A stretch of 64,000 bases of DNA, taken from positions 1-64,000 of the forward strand of contig JAIXTA010000208.1 in NCBI GenBank assembly GCA_027484405.1. The letters are read 5' to 3'. Both the position numbers and the translations under genes were made by a program. Source of the DNA: Burkholderiales bacterium. GTDB taxonomy: Bacteria; Pseudomonadota; Gammaproteobacteria; Burkholderiales; Burkholderiaceae_C. How positions within the stretch are numbered: position 1 is the first letter of the stretch; each line of letters starts with the position of its first letter. Below are positions 6,213-62,732 of this stretch, in pieces. The notes beneath the pieces are model-generated. The model made no database searches and was not told the origin of the DNA. It worked only from the letters and a program-made list of their open reading frames with translations.

Positions 6213-7117
6213 GCACCCTGTACCAATCCACCATCACTTCGCTGCCCCTGCTGGGCCGCGGCAAGGTTCGCGAGAACTACGGCATCGGCAGCGACAAGAT
6301 GCTCATGGTTGCGAGCGACCGGCTCTCGGCCTTCGACGTGATCATGAACGAGCCGATCCCGGGCAAGGGCCGCGTGCTCACGGGCATGGCGCTGTTCTGG
6401 TTCGACCGGCTCGCGCACATCATCCCCAACCACGGCACCGGCATCGCGCCCGAGACCGTGGTGGCGGCCGATGAAGTGGAGCAGGTGCGCGGCCGTGCGC
6501 AGGTGGTCAAGAAGTTGAAGCCCGTGATGGTCGAGGCCGTGGTGCGCGGCTACCTGGCCGGCAGCGGCTGGAAGGAATACCAGGAGAGCGGCGCGGTGTG
6601 CGGCATCCAGCTGCCCGCGGGCCTGAAGCAGGCCAGCAAGCTGCCCGAGCCGATCTTCACGCCGGCCACCAAGGCCGCGATGGGCGAGCACGACGAGAAC
6701 ATCGCGTTCGACAGGATGTGCGAGATCGTTGGTGCAGACCTCGCCGAGCAGATCCGCACGGTGTCGATCCGCCTGTACCAGGAAGCCGCCGACTACGCCG
6801 CCACGCGCGGCATCATCATTGCCGACACCAAGTTCGAGTTCGGCCTGGACGAGCAGGGCCAACTCACGCTGATGGACGAGGTGCTCACGGCCGACTCGAG
6901 CCGCTTCTGGCCGGCCGACAGCTACCGTGAAGGCATCAGCCCGCCGAGCTACGACAAGCAGTTCGTGCGCGACTGGCTCGAGGCTTACCGCGACGCACAT
7001 GGCCAGCCCTGGCCCAAGACCAAGCCGGCGCCCAGCCTGCCGGCCGACGTGATTGCGGCCACCGCGGCCAAGTACCGCGAGGCCTACGAGAAGCTCACCG
7101 GAAAGGCCTTCGCATGA
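6209..7117 (+). CDS. purC: Phosphoribosylaminoimidazole-succinocarboxamide synthase
   Basis: [47 protein letters not shown] overlap with upstream stop. Confidence 0.96.
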
Positions 7118-7623
7118 GCGGCCCTGCAGACAAGCGCGCTGTCATCGGCATCATCATGGGCAGCAACTCCGACTGGGAGGTGATGAGCCAGGCGGCCAAG
7201 ATGCTCGAGGAATTCGGCGTGGCCTATGAGGCGCAGGTCGTCAGCGCCCACCGCATGCCCGATGACATGTTCCGCTACGCCGAAGCGGCTGCCGGCCGGG
7301 GTCTGAAGGCCATCATCGCCGGCGCCGGCGGTGCGGCGCACCTGCCGGGCATGGTGGCGGCCAAGACCATCGTGCCGGTGCTCGGTGTGCCCGTGCCCTC
7401 CAAGTACCTGCGTGGCGAGGACAGTCTGCACTCCATCGTGCAGATGCCCAAGGGCATTCCGGTGGCCACCTTCGCCATTGGCGAAGCGGGTGCGGCCAAT
7501 GCCGGACTGTTTGCCGTGGCGATGCTGGCGCGCGAGGATGCGGCCCTGGCCGAGAAGCTGCAAGCCTTCCGCGAGCGGCAGACCGAGGTGGCGCGCAACA
7601 TGAAGCTCGAGCCCCTCAAATAG
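7114..7623 (+). CDS. purE: 5-(carboxyamino)imidazole ribonucleotide mutase
   Basis: [44 protein letters not shown] overlap with purC. Confidence 0.96.
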
Positions 7624-7644
7624 CCCGCATCTGAAAATGAAGAA

Positions 7645-7801
7645 TGGCTCTGGATGCGCCTCTTCAGGCCAAAATGCCTGAAAAGCCGCACCAAAACAGC
7701 GATATCGTGGTGCGGGGAGCCCCCGCTTGCAAGCGCGGGCCCATGATGCGGCGCCGAGCGTGCTCGGCGAAACCCCGCATCAAGCACCAGACAAGCGAGA
7801 A
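7645..7801. repeat. Dispersed palindromic repeat, copy 1 (purE-purK spacer)
   Basis: TTCAGGC-caaaat-GCCTGAA; GCGGCGCCGAGCGTGCTCGGCGAAAC; ends GCACCAGACAAGCGAGA. Confidence 0.82.
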
Positions 7802-7840: not shown

Positions 7841-9010
7841 ATGAAAACGCTTGCTCCCGGTTCCTGGTTGGGTCTGCTCGGCGGCGGCCAGCTCGGCCGC
7901 ATGTTCTGCATGGCGGCGCAGAGCCTGGGCTACAAGGTGGTGGTGCTCGACCCCGCGCATGATGGCCCGGCCATCAGCGTGGCCGACGACCATGTGCTCT
8001 CCGACTACCTCGAGCCGCTCGGCCTGGAGAAGCTTGCTGCACGGGCGGGCGCCGTCACCACGGAGTTCGAGAACGTGCCGGCCCAGTCGCTGGACTGGCT
8101 GGCCGACCGCAGCCAGGTCAGCCCGCGCGGCAACGCCGTGGCCATCGCGCAGGACCGCATTGCCGAGAAGGCCTTTGTCACCTCGCAGGGCATCGAGGTT
8201 GCGCCGCACCAGGTCGTGCGCAGCGCAGACGACCTTGGCGAGAACGTGGCCCATCTGCTGCCCGGCATCCTGAAGGTGGCGCGCCTGGGCTACGACGGCA
8301 AGGGCCAGGCCCGCGTCAGCACCCTGGCCGAGGCCAAGGCGGCCTTCGAGCAGTTCGGCCGCGTGCCCTGCGTGCTCGAGAAGATGCTGGATCTCGCCTA
8401 CGAGGTCTCTGTCATCGTGGCGCGCGCATCGGACGGCAGCATGGTGCATTACCCGGTGGCCGAGAACATCCACCGCGGCGGCATCCTGGCCATCAGCATG
8501 GTGCCCAGCCCGCAGGCCACGCAGGACATCGCCGCCCGCGCCCTCACCGCGGCGCAGCGCATCGCCCACGGCATGAACTACGTCGGCGTGCTGTGCGTCG
8601 AGTTCTTCGTGGTCAAGAACGCCGCCGGCGAGCTGCAGCTGCTGGTCAACGAGATGGCGCCGCGCCCGCACAACAGCGGCCACTACAGCATCGATGCCTG
8701 CGTCACCAGCCAGTTCGAGCAGCAGGCCCGCATCATGGCCGGTCTGCCGCTGGGCTCGCCGCGCCAGCACCACCCGGCGGTCATGATCAACCTGCTGGGC
8801 GATGTCTGGAAAGACGAGCAGGGCGAATTCCGCGAGCCCGACTGGGCCTACGTGCTGCGCGAGCCCAATGCCAAGCTGCACCTGTACGGCAAGGCCGACG
8901 CCCGCGCCGGCCGCAAGATGGGCCACATCACCGTGCTGGGCAACACGGTGGCCGACGCGCTGGCGGCCGCCAACCGGATTGCCGAGCGGCTGGGCATCGA
9001 GCGGTTCTGA
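7841..9010 (+). CDS. purK: 5-(carboxyamino)imidazole ribonucleotide synthase
   Basis: WLGLLGGGQLGRMFCMAAQSLGYKVVVLDP; NEMAPRPHNSGHYSIDAC; start ATG 7841. Confidence 0.95.
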   Translation: MKTLAPGSWLGLLGGGQLGRMFCMAAQSLGYKVVVLDPAHDGPAISVADDHVLSDYLEPLGLEKLAARAGAVTTEFENVPAQSLDWLADRSQVSPRGNAVAIAQDRIAEKAFVTSQGIEVAPHQVVRSADDLGENVAHLLPGILKVARLGYDGKGQARVSTLAEAKAAFEQFGRVPCVLEKMLDLAYEVSVIVARASDGSMVHYPVAENIHRGGILAISMVPSPQATQDIAARALTAAQRIAHGMNYVGVLCVEFFVVKNAAGELQLLVNEMAPRPHNSGHYSIDACVTSQFEQQARIMAGLPLGSPRQHHPAVMINLLGDVWKDEQGEFREPDWAYVLREPNAKLHLYGKADARAGRKMGHITVLGNTVADALAAANRIAERLGIERF

Positions 9011-14374: not shown

Positions 14375-15274
14375 ATGGACCTCGCGTCCTTCCTGATCCA
14401 GTGCCTCAATGCCGTGCAGTACGGCCTGCTGCTGTTTCTCGTTGCGGCCGGTCTCACGCTGATCTTCGGCATCATGGGCGTGATCAACCTCGCCCACGGC
14501 AGCTTCTACATGATGGGCGCTTACTTGGCCTACGGGCTCGCGCCCTGGGTGAACGCCCAGCTGGGGGGCGGCTTCTTCACAGTGCTGGCCATCGGCCTGG
14601 TGATCGCCGTGCTCATCGGCCTGCTGCTGGAGTGGGCCTTCTTCAGCTTCCTGTATGAGCGCGAGCACCTGCAGCAGGTGCTGATGACCTACGGCCTGAT
14701 CCTCGTGTTCGAGGAACTGCGCTCGCTCTTGATCGGTGATGACGTCTACAGCGTACCGGCGCCGGCGTTCCTTGCCGGCAGCATCGCACTCACCGAGGTG
14801 CTGAGCTACCCGGTGTATCGCCTGTTCATCAGCGGGGTGTGTCTGGCTGCGGTGCTCGGGCTCGCCTGGGTCTTCACGCGCACGCGCCTGGGCATGCAGA
14901 TCCGCGCCGGCAGCGTGAACCGCGAGATGGTGGCCGCACTCGGCGTGGATATTCGCCTGCTCTATCGCCTGGTGTTTGCGGCCGGCGTGGCGCTGGCGGC
15001 GCTGGCCGGCATGGTCGCCGCGCCCGTGACCACCGCTTTCCCCGGCATGGGCCAGCAGATCCTGATCATCAGCTTTGTGGTGGTGGTGATCGGCGGGATC
15101 GGCTCGGTGAAAGGGGCGCTGGTGGCGGCACTGTTGATCGGCTTTGTGGACACCTTCGGCAAGGTGCTGCTGCCGCAGGCGGCCGGCGTGCTGGTGTATG
15201 TGCTCATGGCGGCGGTGCTCCTGATCAAGCCGCAGGGGTTGTTTGGAAGCAGCATGGGCGGGGCAGGGAAGTGA
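14375..15274 (+). CDS. livH: Branched-chain amino acid ABC transporter permease (LivH type)
   Basis: GLTLIFGIMGVINLAHGSFYMMGAYLAYGL; GGIGSVKGALVAALLIGFVDTFG. Confidence 0.93.
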   Translation: MDLASFLIQCLNAVQYGLLLFLVAAGLTLIFGIMGVINLAHGSFYMMGAYLAYGLAPWVNAQLGGGFFTVLAIGLVIAVLIGLLLEWAFFSFLYEREHLQQVLMTYGLILVFEELRSLLIGDDVYSVPAPAFLAGSIALTEVLSYPVYRLFISGVCLAAVLGLAWVFTRTRLGMQIRAGSVNREMVAALGVDIRLLYRLVFAAGVALAALAGMVAAPVTTAFPGMGQQILIISFVVVVIGGIGSVKGALVAALLIGFVDTFGKVLLPQAAGVLVYVLMAAVLLIKPQGLFGSSMGGAGK

Positions 15275-17184
15275 AGCGCGCCATTGCTCTGCCCGAGGTG
15301 CTTCGCGCTGCGCCCCTGATCCTTGCACTCGTACTGCTCGCCGTCGTGCCCTTTGTGTTCGGCCGCTACGGCACGGACCTCGCGGTGAAGGTCATGATCT
15401 ACGCCATCTTCGTGGCCGGGCTGGATCTGCTGGTGGGCCGCACCGGCCTGGTGAGCCTGGGCCACGCGGCCTTCTTCGGCATGGCGGCCTATGTGGCCGT
15501 GCTGGCCTCGCCTGCCGATGCGCCGGCTTCGCTCCATGTGCTGCTGCCGCTGGCCGTGCTGGCCGCCGCGGGCTTTGCACTCGTCACCGGCGCGCTGGCC
15601 CTGCGCACCCAGGGCGTGTACTTCATCATGGTCACACTGGCCTTTGCGCAGATGGCCTATTACCTGTTCCACGACACCCCCTTGGGCGGCGGCACCGACG
15701 GCATCTACATGAACCTCAAGCCGGCCACGGGCGTGCTGGATCTGGATCGCGCGCCGGTGTTCTATGGCTTCTGCCTTGTAGTGCTGGTCGCCACGCTTGC
15801 GGGGCTGGCGCTGTTGAATCGCAGCCGTTTCGGCCGCGTGCTGGCCGGTATCAAGGCGAGCGAGCAGCGCATGCGGGCGCTGGGCTTCAACACCTTTGCC
15901 TACAAGCTGGCTGCCTATGTGCTGTCGGCCGCAGTGGCCGGGCTGGCCGGATTTCTCTGGGCGGTGAAGGACGCCTACGTGAACCCGGAGATGCTCGGCT
16001 GGCATACCAGCGGCACGGTGCTGGTGATGCTGATCCTCGGCGGCCTGGGCAGCCTGCGCGGCGCCGTACTGGGCGCGGCGGCCTATCTGCTGCTCAAGGA
16101 CGCGTTTCAGTCCCAGGCGCTGATTGGCGAGGCCAGCAAGCACTGGCAGCTCTGGATGGGCGCCACGGTGATTGCCTGCGTGGTGCTGATGCCGCGCGGG
16201 CTGGCGGGTCTGCTGGACCGGCTTGCGCCCGCTCCAAGCCCGGATAATGACACGCAGATCGAGCATTCAAGCGCTTCTTCAGGGCAAAGTGGCTGGAAAC
16301 CCGCGCCAGACAAGCGAGATTCAGGCGCAGGGGGCTCGCGCCTGCATGCGCTCGCTCTTGAGGCGGCGCCGAGCATGCTCGGCGAAACACCGCTTGAAGC
16401 TCCAGACAAGCGGGAAGCTCCTCCGGACGACGCCCCGCTGCTGCGCGCTCACGCCATCACCCGCCGTTTCGGCGGCCTGGTGGCGGTGAGCGAGGTCTCG
16501 CTAGCGCTCAAGCGCGGCGAGGTGCATGCCGTCATCGGCACCAACGGTGCGGGCAAGTCCACGCTGGTGAACGTGCTCGCGGGTGAGCTGTTGCCCAGTA
16601 GTGGCAGGGTGGAACTGCTTGGCGCGGACGTCACGCACACCGCGCAGCCGCAGCGTGCCCGTGCCGGGCTGGGCCGCAGCTACCAGCGCAGTACTGTGTT
16701 TGCCGACTTCACGGTGCTGGAAAACGTGCGCCTGGCTGCGCAGGCGGCAGACCCCGCCCCCTGGCGCATCGGACCGGCCGCCATGCAGGACGCCGCACTG
16801 CTCGCCCGCGCGCGCACCTGCAGTGCGCAGGTGGGCTTGAGCGACGTGGCGCAGCGCACAGCCAGCAGCATCTCGCACGGCCAGCGCCGCCAGCTGGAAA
16901 TTGCCATGTGCCTGGCCACCGCGCCGCAGGTGCTGCTGCTCGACGAGCCCCTGGCCGGCATGGGCGCTGAGGAAACGGAGCGCATGCTCGCGCTGCTGCA
17001 GACGCTGAAGGCAGACCACGCCATCCTGCTGATCGAGCACGACATGGACGCCGTGTTCCGCATTGCCGATCGCATCACCGTCATGGTCGAGGGCCGTGTG
17101 ATCGCCAGTGACGCCCCCGCCGCCATCCGCGCGCACCCCGATGTGCAGCGCGCCTATTTGGGCGAGGACTTCCATGACGCTTGA
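15271..17184 (+). CDS. livMG: Fused LivM permease / LivG ATP-binding protein
   Basis: GTG start overlaps livH stop. LivM part: FVAGLDLLVGRTGLVSLGHAAFFGMAAYVAVL. Linker at ~16250-16425. LivG part: AVIGTNGAGKSTLVNVLAGE, ISHGQRRQLEIAMCLATAPQVLLLDEPLAGM. Confidence 0.93.
   Translation: MKRAIALPEVLRAAPLILALVLLAVVPFVFGRYGTDLAVKVMIYAIFVAGLDLLVGRTGLVSLGHAAFFGMAAYVAVLASPADAPASLHVLLPLAVLAAAGFALVTGALALRTQGVYFIMVTLAFAQMAYYLFHDTPLGGGTDGIYMNLKPATGVLDLDRAPVFYGFCLVVLVATLAGLALLNRSRFGRVLAGIKASEQRMRALGFNTFAYKLAAYVLSAAVAGLAGFLWAVKDAYVNPEMLGWHTSGTVLVMLILGGLGSLRGAVLGAAAYLLLKDAFQSQALIGEASKHWQLWMGATVIACVVLMPRGLAGLLDRLAPAPSPDNDTQIEHSSASSGQSGWKPAPDKRDSGAGGSRLHALALEAAPSMLGETPLEAPDKREAPPDDAPLLRAHAITRRFGGLVAVSEVSLALKRGEVHAVIGTNGAGKSTLVNVLAGELLPSSGRVELLGADVTHTAQPQRARAGLGRSYQRSTVFADFTVLENVRLAAQAADPAPWRIGPAAMQDAALLARARTCSAQVGLSDVAQRTASSISHGQRRQLEIAMCLATAPQVLLLDEPLAGMGAEETERMLALLQTLKADHAILLIEHDMDAVFRIADRITVMVEGRVIASDAPAAIRAHPDVQRAYLGEDFHDA
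16259..16420. repeat. Dispersed palindromic repeat, copy 2 (inside livMG)
   Basis: GCGGCGCCGAGCATGCTCGGCGAAAC at 16363-16388 is 25/26 identical to 7748-7773; CCAGACAAGCGAGA (16306-16319) and CCAGACAAGCGGGA (16402-16415). Confidence 0.82.
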
Positions 17185-33587: not shown

Positions 33588-33729
33588 AGCCACAGATGGC
33601 CACAGATGAACACAGACAAAAAACCGGAATGTCGGTCCCGAGGAGAGCGGCCGACGCCTTCATCTCAAAGGTGGCAGAGCGCATACTGCGCGGCGCACGA
33701 ATCGGGTTCATCTGGGTTCATCTGTGGCT
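33588..33729. repeat. Inverted CCACAGATG-type repeat in the kynA-kynU spacer
   Basis: AGCCACAGATGGCCACAGATGAAC (33588-33611) vs GTTCATCTGGGTTCATCTGTGGCT (33706-33729): 21/24 inverted identity. Confidence 0.85.
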
Positions 33730-35005: not shown

Positions 35006-35029
35006 GGGGATTCAGGAGGAAAACAGGGG

Positions 35030-35156
35030 GCCACAGATGGCCACAGACGGACACAGATGAAGACAAACGATGCATGAAAGAGGACCTTGGCCTTTTGCGG
35101 GCGCATTCGATACGCATCGGCTCAAACATCTGTGTTCATCTGTGGCCCTCTGTGGC
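35030..35156. repeat. Inverted CCACAGATG-type repeat in the kynU-kynB spacer
   Basis: GCCACAGATGGCCACAGACGGACACAGATG (35030-35059) vs CATCTGTGTTCATCTGTGGCCCTCTGTGGC (35127-35156): 27/30 inverted identity. Confidence 0.85.
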
Positions 35157-46567: not shown

Positions 46568-46650
46568 CGGGACAAGCATGCCAGATCCAGCATTCATGCG
46601 CTTCTCCAGCCCGAAATGGCTGGAGAAGTCCACGGGACAAGCGACAAGCC
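46568..46650. repeat. Dispersed palindromic repeat, copy 3 (5' end of TPM gene)
   Basis: AGCATTCATGCGCTTCTCCAG...TGGCTGGA parallels copy 2; perfect 11-bp stem CTTCTCCAGCC-cgaaat-GGCTGGAGAAG (46601-46628); CGGGACAAGC twice. Confidence 0.7.
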
Positions 46651-47567
46651 CCGCGTGGTTTGCCGCGATCCTCAGGCTGCTCATACTGGCTGCACTCGTC
46701 ATGACGCTGCCCGCGCAGGCGCAGCAGCCCCTCCCGGTACCGCCGCTCGCACAACTCACCGACACGGCAGGCGCACTGAACCCCGCGGATCGTGAGCGCA
46801 TCGCCGCGCAACTCAAGGACATCGAGCAGCGGCGCGGCAGCCAGATTGCCGTGCTGGTGATTCCCGGCACGCAGGGTGAGCCGATCGAGGACTTTGCGCA
46901 GCGCGTGGGCTCAAGCTGGAAGATCGGCCGCGCCGGCGTGGGCGATGGGCTGGTGCTGATCGTGGCCGTGCAGGACCGGCGCGCCCGCATCGATGTGGCG
47001 CGCACGCTCGAAGGCGCGATTCCGGACGTCGTGGCCGGCCGCATCATCCGCGAGGTCATGGCGCCGGCCTTCAAGGCGGGCGACTACGCCGGCGGCATCG
47101 TCAAGGCACTCGCGCGCATCGACCAGCTGCTGGACAAGGAGGCGGCGGCCGGTGCGCTGCCTGCGCCCAGCGCGGCCTTGCCCCGCCCTGGCGATGGGCG
47201 CGGCGAAGAGGGCTTCTTCGTCATCCTGATCGTGGCGGCGGCGATCGGCGCCGTGATGCGGCGCATGATCGGCGGCCTGGGGCCGCTGGCGGCCGCAGGC
47301 GGTGCGGCAGGCTATGCCGTGTGGGCAGGTCACAGCCTGTTGTGGGCGCTGCCCTTGGCGTTCTTTGTACTGCTTGCCAGCTTCGTCTTCAGCCTGCGCG
47401 GCAGCGGCCGCGCCGTGTCTCGCTCCGGCGGTGGGCCGGTCTACATCCCCGGTGGGTGGAGCAGCGGCGGTGGTGGTGGCTGGTCATCCGGCAGCAGCGA
47501 CAGCGGCGGCTGGTCCTCCGGTGGCGGGGGCGACTTCGGCGGCGGCGGCGCGAGCGGAGACTGGTGA
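46578..47567 (+). CDS. TPM domain protein (YgcG type)
   Basis: LTDTAGALNPADRERIAAQLKDIEQRRGSQIAVLVIPGTQGEPIEDFAQRVGSSWKIGR; Gly/Ser-rich C-terminus; 5' end overlaps a repeat copy so the start is uncertain. Confidence 0.9.
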   Translation: MPDPAFMRFSSPKWLEKSTGQATSPAWFAAILRLLILAALVMTLPAQAQQPLPVPPLAQLTDTAGALNPADRERIAAQLKDIEQRRGSQIAVLVIPGTQGEPIEDFAQRVGSSWKIGRAGVGDGLVLIVAVQDRRARIDVARTLEGAIPDVVAGRIIREVMAPAFKAGDYAGGIVKALARIDQLLDKEAAAGALPAPSAALPRPGDGRGEEGFFVILIVAAAIGAVMRRMIGGLGPLAAAGGAAGYAVWAGHSLLWALPLAFFVLLASFVFSLRGSGRAVSRSGGGPVYIPGGWSSGGGGGWSSGSSDSGGWSSGGGGDFGGGGASGDW

Positions 47568-59223: not shown

Positions 59224-59364
59224 CGCTTGCTGGGTGCGGCTTTCCAGTCTGTCTGGCTCAGGGGCCGCATCCCGCAACGATCTTCAGGCAGGGGGTCTGA
59301 AGAGGCTTTCTGGGTGCGGATCTTCGAGCGTTTAGCCCGAAGATCCGCACCAGACAAGCGAGAT
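59224..59364. repeat. Dispersed palindromic repeat, copy 4 (between TPR and DUF3445 genes)
   Basis: CGCTTGCTGGGTGCGG...CCGCACCAGACAAGCGAGA; 13-bp stem GTGCGGATCTTCG/CGAAGATCCGCAC (59314-59350). Confidence 0.82.
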
Positions 59365-62537: not shown

Positions 62538-62732
62538 CTCGCTTGTCTGGTGCTGGAGGCGGGTTTTGACGGGCGAGCCCGTCGCCGCCGGAAGAGCGAG
62601 CGCCTACCCGCGCGAGCCCCGTTGCGCCACTGATCGCTTGCTTGGCGCGGATCTTCAAGGCATTGCTCTGAAGAATGGCTTGCAGCGCGGCTCTTCAGCC
62701 TGTCTGCCTGAAGAGCCGCATCCAGCAAGCGA
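62538..62732. repeat. Dispersed palindromic repeat, copy 5 (between SDR and dinB)
   Basis: CTCGCTTGTCTGGTGC...TCGCTTGCTTGG...CCGCATCCAGCAAGCGA; 12-bp stem GCGGCTCTTCAG/CTGAAGAGCCGC (62687-62719); GACGGGC-ga-GCCCGTC (62568-62583). Confidence 0.82.

Follow-up and report, generated by a model that had tools for sequence, protein, structure and literature searches.

The described repeat families closest to those analyzed here are the REP and BIME elements, which are recognized by a tag joined to a hairpin, by inverted pairs, and by abundance (PMC2817692, PMC3733652). RAYT-associated REP, BIME, and REPIN elements begin with a GTAG or GTGG head and accompany a repeat-flanked Y1 transposase gene, while CGTC-tagged REPs, including the RPE of Rickettsia, carry CGTC at the palindrome end and lack a dedicated transposase (PMC3733652). 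The entry of repeats into genes has already been described for both RPE and REPs (PMC3733652). A further relative by description is the betaproteobacterial repeat element (BRE), which PMC3110155 presents as 75–91 bp long, with a mean GC content of ~69% and tandem copies that are variable between genomes, mostly intergenic with some copies in genes, and found in several betaproteobacterial families, including several Comamonadaceae.

The window (the whole stretch of 64,000 nucleotides that was analyzed) contains five loci that are mosaics of two different modules: a ~60-bp dyad with a tag, here called module A or, between inverted tags, form B; and a double hairpin, module C. The preliminary description saw in these loci a REP/BIME-like dispersed family, and this view is well founded, as the repeats are present in many copies, mostly intergenic, in inverted pairs, and with recurrent spacings of 57, 97, and 137 bp. 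They resemble RAYT-associated REP/BIME/REPIN elements in their tagged palindrome, hundreds of copies, inverted pairs, mainly extragenic placement, and bias toward intergenic sites and gene 3′ ends. However, an 11-bp tag, CGCTTGTCTGG, stands in place of the GTAG or GTGG head, no repeat-flanked Y1 gene was detected in this genus, the arms do not covary, and the unrelated module C is added. With CGTC-tagged REPs, the family shares the lack of a dedicated transposase and the in-frame copies within genes, but the base of its consensus hairpin lacks CGTC, and its composites are longer and include another structured module. Module C agrees with the published description of BRE in size, high GC content, and tandem variability, and likewise in being mostly intergenic with some copies in genes and in spanning several betaproteobacterial groups. 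BRE is reported there from several Comamonadaceae, whereas covariance model R2 found module C in just 7 of 251 family genomes, belonging to six genera, in a search that scored up to 18 candidates per genome and thus reads as presence rather than copy number; this rarity speaks against simple identity with BRE as so described. A literature search for the tag 11-mer returned, by title, unrelated primers only. We consider it somewhat better than an even chance that the five loci are a genus-level mosaic of two non-autonomous modules working like REP/BIME or MITE elements, now mostly fixed and with no identified mobilizer.

Loci and genomes compared

The host genome (G000; 3.70 Mb in 220 contigs, assembly 94% complete) was compared with a second genome of the genus (G001, hereafter the sister genome; 99% complete). 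The latter is probably that of “Beta proteobacterium AAP99”; PurK from AAP99 and PurK from the window share 98% identity, and the contig coordinates of module C match between G001 and the AAP99 genome reached via the PurK locus.

Related palindromes occur at each of the five loci, at the coordinates assigned to them in the preliminary description. Outer boundaries formed by two inverted tags, which it had attributed to all five, are present in copies 4 and 5 only: in copies 1 and 2 tags are confined to the right-hand side (copy 2 has two, in direct orientation), and the tag of copy 3 is degenerate. Copy 4, described as having two or three hairpins between its boundaries, has three. The features are as follows.

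7642..7704, + strand: copy 1, module A hairpin (profile match E 4.4e-12), between purE (7114-7623; Pfam AIRC) and purK (7841-9010; Pfam PurK)
7711..7793, + strand as modeled, folding strand probably the complement: copy 1, module C double hairpin (R2, 82.2 bits)
7787..7797, + strand: copy 1, tag CCAGACAAGCG
15271..17184, + strand: fused LivM-LivG ORF with its inter-domain linker from copy 2 (Pfam BPD_transp_2 36-297, ABC_tran 407-562)
16256..16321, + strand: copy 2, module A and its tag, in frame within the LivM-LivG ORF (profile E 1e-17)
16326..16408, + strand: copy 2, module C (R2, 88.8 bits)
16402..16412, + strand: copy 2, second tag CCAGACAAGCG
46578-47567: TPM-domain protein, start region from copy 3 (Pfam TPM_phosphatase)
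46583..46650, + strand: copy 3, module A with degenerate tag (profile E 4.8e-11)
59224..59360, no strand: copy 4, form B of 137 bp, three hairpins between inverted tags (fold z −7.2)
62544..62625, − strand as modeled: copy 5, module C (R2, 75.1 bits), absent from the sister genome
62635..62731, no strand: copy 5, form B of 97 bp, two hairpins between inverted tags

Copy number and anatomy of modules A and B

Further copies, for which the preliminary description had proposed a genome-wide search, number in the hundreds. Exact matches to the tag CCAGACAAGCG number 140 in the host genome and 142 in the sister genome; the reversed word, used as a control, gave three in the former and six in the latter. 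Over ~1.05 Mb, the module A profile (A2; 49 gapless copies, 71 columns) gave 117 matches at E ≤ 0.01, compared with zero when the sequence was reversed, and modules A and B together reach a density of ~100 copies per Mb. The dispersed repeat family is thus real and far above chance.

The elements read as the tag CGCTTGTCTGG followed by the dyad, and occur singly, in inverted pairs, and in chains. With the tag on the right, module A has the form AGATCGAGCATTCATGCGG-TTCTTCAGGCCAAAATGGCTGAAGAA-CCGCACCAGACAAGCG, with a left tail of alternative types (AGCATTCA, GTCCATTT, or ATGGCTCTGG), which may differ between sister-genome orthologues (locus L077). A tail-to-tail junction of two A units, in the fashion of a BIME, makes up the elements of 130–141 bp. 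Form B has inverted tags at both ends around one, two, or three hairpins, giving lengths of 57, 97, and 137 bp that differ by a unit of ~40 bp; the 97-bp form is represented by ten copies. By eye, many copies of form B share the outer inverted repeat GGCTTTCCGCTTGTCTGG, and neither an autonomous IS nor a clear target duplication was noticed in an unsystematic inspection. Orthologous copies diverge by 13%–17% in columns 1–61 and by 51% over the ten columns beyond the tag, in a comparison biased toward conserved copies in that those of the sister genome had to match the profile; because divergence leaps just past the tag, the tag is the edge of the element. The consensus hairpin has no trailing T-run and is therefore unlike an intrinsic terminator.

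Covariation of the stems

The preliminary description held that the stems differ between copies while remaining paired. Three tests did not bear this out, as none exceeded shuffled or expected values. For the 12-pair stem of module A, 82.5% of cells were paired across 49 copies, compared with 82.9% when the 3′ letters were dealt out among copies; for form B, 20 hairpins from ten 97-bp elements gave 71.4% against 72.0% shuffled. Nineteen orthologous pairs had 33 changes in one arm and 36 in the other, and contained six double changes where 5.2 were expected (permutation p 0.89). RNAalifold, applied to the 49 A copies of the A2 alignment, likewise returned no consensus pairs. Each arm of the A/B dyad keeps to its own consensus and the arms do not covary; the well-paired stems quoted earlier are the better-paired members of the family. 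A dyad with independently conserved halves is what a site for a sequence-specific protein would give.

Selection on structure, which the preliminary description had proposed for these hairpins, is strongly supported instead for module C, which it had not separated from them. Module C is a double hairpin of 84–96 nt found in copies 1, 2, and 5. An alignment of 29 copies (A3) contains three helices with 26 pairs, of which 22 changed on both sides; 84.4% of cells are paired, compared with 67.5% after shuffling, and the covariation score is 0.418 against 0.126. Across five measures, shuffles reached the observed value only for the count of further pair types (24 of 500). A set of 43 distinct copies gave a score of 0.454 against 0.120, and 35 copies from other genera (A5) gave 87.5% paired cells against 62.7% and a score of 0.627 against 0.165, though both of these alignments were fitted to the covariance model and lean toward it. 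Module C covaries very strongly, and its internal loops and 5-nt bulge are conserved.

Mismatches within the helices are one-sided, with 119 C.T and two G.A in the 43 sequences from the AAP99 genus, and 90 and one, respectively, in the 35 from other genera. G.A mismatches are stable non-canonical pairs. The complementary strand is likely to be the one that folds, since the mismatches would be G.A there; its two hairpins would have internal loops of tandem G.A and a conserved bulge, GGUUUC. The GC content of module C is mostly 0.62–0.78, and tandem copies are spaced at ~95 bp (locus L204). No Rfam family matched the window at gathering score, and no weak match to module C was credible.

Genomic context

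Gene context was assessed over ~1.05 Mb using a home-made gene predictor, which placed 89 of 99 copies outside predicted genes. Among spacers of at least 80 bp, there were 29 copies for 59 convergent spacers, 12 for 108 divergent spacers, and 48 for 280 tandem spacers; copies in tandem spacers showed no strand bias (24/24), and the upstream stop codon lay at a median distance of 35 bp. Most copies thus sit at the 3′ end of a gene or in a convergent spacer.

Not every copy is extragenic, as some lie in frame within coding sequences. The ORF that joins LivM (BPD_transp_2) to LivG (ABC_tran, BCA_ABC_TP_C) through copy 2 is open in both genomes; its 96-bp module C, set between two direct tags, is missing from the sister genome, and the extra length leaves the frame intact. 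Copy 3 supplies the N-terminus of the TPM-domain protein in both genomes. Further instances, with protein identities assigned by eye, include an endonuclease III-like protein with two in-frame copies in its C-terminal tail (L072:539-1573; sister-genome counterpart G001 C1:202448-203485), where the repeats are translated as ..STGAASQTKMAG..TSEKP..; a small urease-beta-like protein whose C-terminus is made by a repeat copy (G001 C27:235659-236117); and a strong profile match at the inter-domain region of PutA (G001 C2:16206-18992).

Mobilization and alternative explanations

A RAYT, which the preliminary description suggested as an associated gene, was not detected in either genome of the genus: Y1_Tnp (PF01797) had no match in G000 or G001, compared with 43 of the 61 genomes searched that have one. 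A search of the translated genomes with the RAYT-like protein of a relative, run without a positive control, gave no match, and inspection by eye of the ORFs lying between widely spaced tags revealed no transposase. Loss of the Y1 gene is likely, rather than an assembly gap, because the two assemblies are 94% (host) and 99% (sister) complete. Several related genera (L041, L043–L046, L049, L050) have single-copy Y1_Tnp genes directly upstream of a gltB-like gene, with GGGGTCAGA-like, GGGG-type flanks (both by eye); these resemble the TIR-flanked “TIRYT” genes of PMC3733652, and none of this gltB-adjacent type was found in this genus. Exact tags near the relatives' Y1_Tnp genes examined occur only close to the IS200-type copies of G017; the single-copy genes have no tag beside them, save inside coding sequence.

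These observations make it distinctly unlikely that the repeats are a classical REP/BIME family moved by a RAYT of this genus. Their tag plus hairpin, inverted pairs, and abundance do match the REPs of PMC2817692 and PMC3733652, but such a history sits poorly with the absence of PF01797 from both genomes, with the flanks and gltB-like neighbor of the relatives' genes, and with a tag that differs from GTAG, GTGG, and CGTC. We give the least credence to a role as DNA-uptake or chromosome-organizing signal words: a short, conserved tag that is dense, intergenic, and free of orientation would suit one, yet this tag is only part of a ~60-bp element whose ends are defined, and many copies are composite.

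On the reading favored above, in which the loci are mosaics of non-autonomous modules, the copies may have originated from a folded single strand that was transposed by a trans-acting enzyme, perhaps since lost. The A/B dyad would owe its conservation to a sequence-specific protein site and not to an RNA stem; insertions would last where they do no harm, at the 3′ ends of genes and in convergent spacers, and a few may have been absorbed into proteins as in-frame linkers or termini. Module C is a separate double hairpin, inserted or deleted at the tag as a 95–96-bp unit, and probably folds on one strand.

For module C itself, the boldest reading, which we consider less likely than not, would make it a hitherto undescribed element, mobile or regulatory, that is shared by several betaproteobacterial genera, is recognized as folded single-stranded DNA, is mobilized by an enzyme other than Y1, and travels in host repeats that differ between genera: CGCTTGTCTGG in this one, and arms of CCCCTCTCCC type in Noviherbaspirillum. 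That module C is instead kept as RNA, acting in cis or as a small RNA (e.g., an sRNA or a means of mRNA 3′ protection), seems rather unlikely, even with covariation this strong, purine-purine internal loops, and, in PMC3110155, a Bordetella repeat of similar size that overlaps an 80-nt transcript. The folding strand is of mixed orientation relative to flanking genes, which argues against a plain RNA motif and fits folded DNA better; one copy is in frame within a coding sequence, others form tandem arrays, and Rfam offered no credible match. Covariation might also arise from mutation alone, without structural selection, through template switching that repairs imperfect palindromes at replication. 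Template switching is a known mutational process at quasi-palindromes, but nothing of the kind is seen in the A and B hairpins of these genomes, and the internal loops and 5-nt bulge of module C are conserved rather than erased, so we regard this explanation as highly unlikely.

A dyad conserved in sequence and a module conserved in shape, usually lumped together among REP-like repeats, thus stand side by side in one genome, making the causes of each mode of conservation directly comparable. A dense family with no detectable RAYT offers a way to test how such repeats can last or spread when they lack one, and the in-frame copies (the LivM-LivG linker, the TPM-protein N-terminus, and the endonuclease III tail) are repeat DNA turned into protein sequence in two related genomes.

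Distribution and inheritance

Among 28 genomes reached via PurK loci, R2 matches numbered 46 each in AAP99 and Noviherbaspirillum malthae, nine in Lacisediminimonas profundi, eight in N. galbum, three in N. massiliense, and one each in N. autotrophicum and Zeimonas arvi. By eye, module C of Noviherbaspirillum is framed by other inverted repeats, of CCCCTCTCCC type. Profile A2 clearly matched only this genus, with matches in 4 of 150 genomes (two of them with one to three weak matches); up to 33 candidates were scored per genome, so these figures likewise indicate presence and not copy number. Searches of plasmids and phages found no match to module A, and a search of plasmids found no relatives of module C.

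The pattern ATAGCTGCnnnCGCTTGnnTGG was found in 27 of 301 genomes, representing 13 genera, with up to 78 copies per genome and no control matches; it is missing from this genus in the same search. Like module A, these palindromes of related genera combine the tag CGCTTGnCTGG with an inner GGCCAAaTTTGGC-like dyad; they differ in their outer arm, ATAGCTGC, in place of which module A has GGCTTTC. Since tag and dyad are shared, module A is likely part of a wider repeat family. Palindromes beginning with ATAGCTGCnnnCGCTTGnCTGG, often preceded by TTTTTG, share the family tag in 13 related genera (L282–L300).

Elements at orthologous loci are more similar (0.76) than paralogues (0.57), so most copies are inherited rather than recent, and the continued spread suggested in the preliminary description is not demonstrated. 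The three-hairpin element of copy 4 and the two-hairpin element of copy 5 are both present at the orthologous sites of the sister genome, and the two-genome comparison found no clean empty site for a whole module A element. Module C varies between the genomes: it is present in the window and missing from the sister genome at purE-purK (7.7 kb; orthologous AAP99 locus, alignment with L101), LivM-LivG (16.3 kb), and copy 5 (62.6 kb), and locus L011 is the reverse case, with module C in the sister genome only. What is gained or lost is a 95–96-bp unit bounded by tag repeats; insertion at a tag and deletion between tags both fit.

Similarity between the genomes stops inside one module A copy (L005:1080-1300 vs. 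G001 C27:250380-250620), as though the copy had served in a rearrangement. The window also holds a short repeat distinct from this family, GCCACAGATGGCCACAGATGAACACAGA, at 33589-33616 and 35020-35067, and similar CACAGATG words lie near other loci (e.g., L016).
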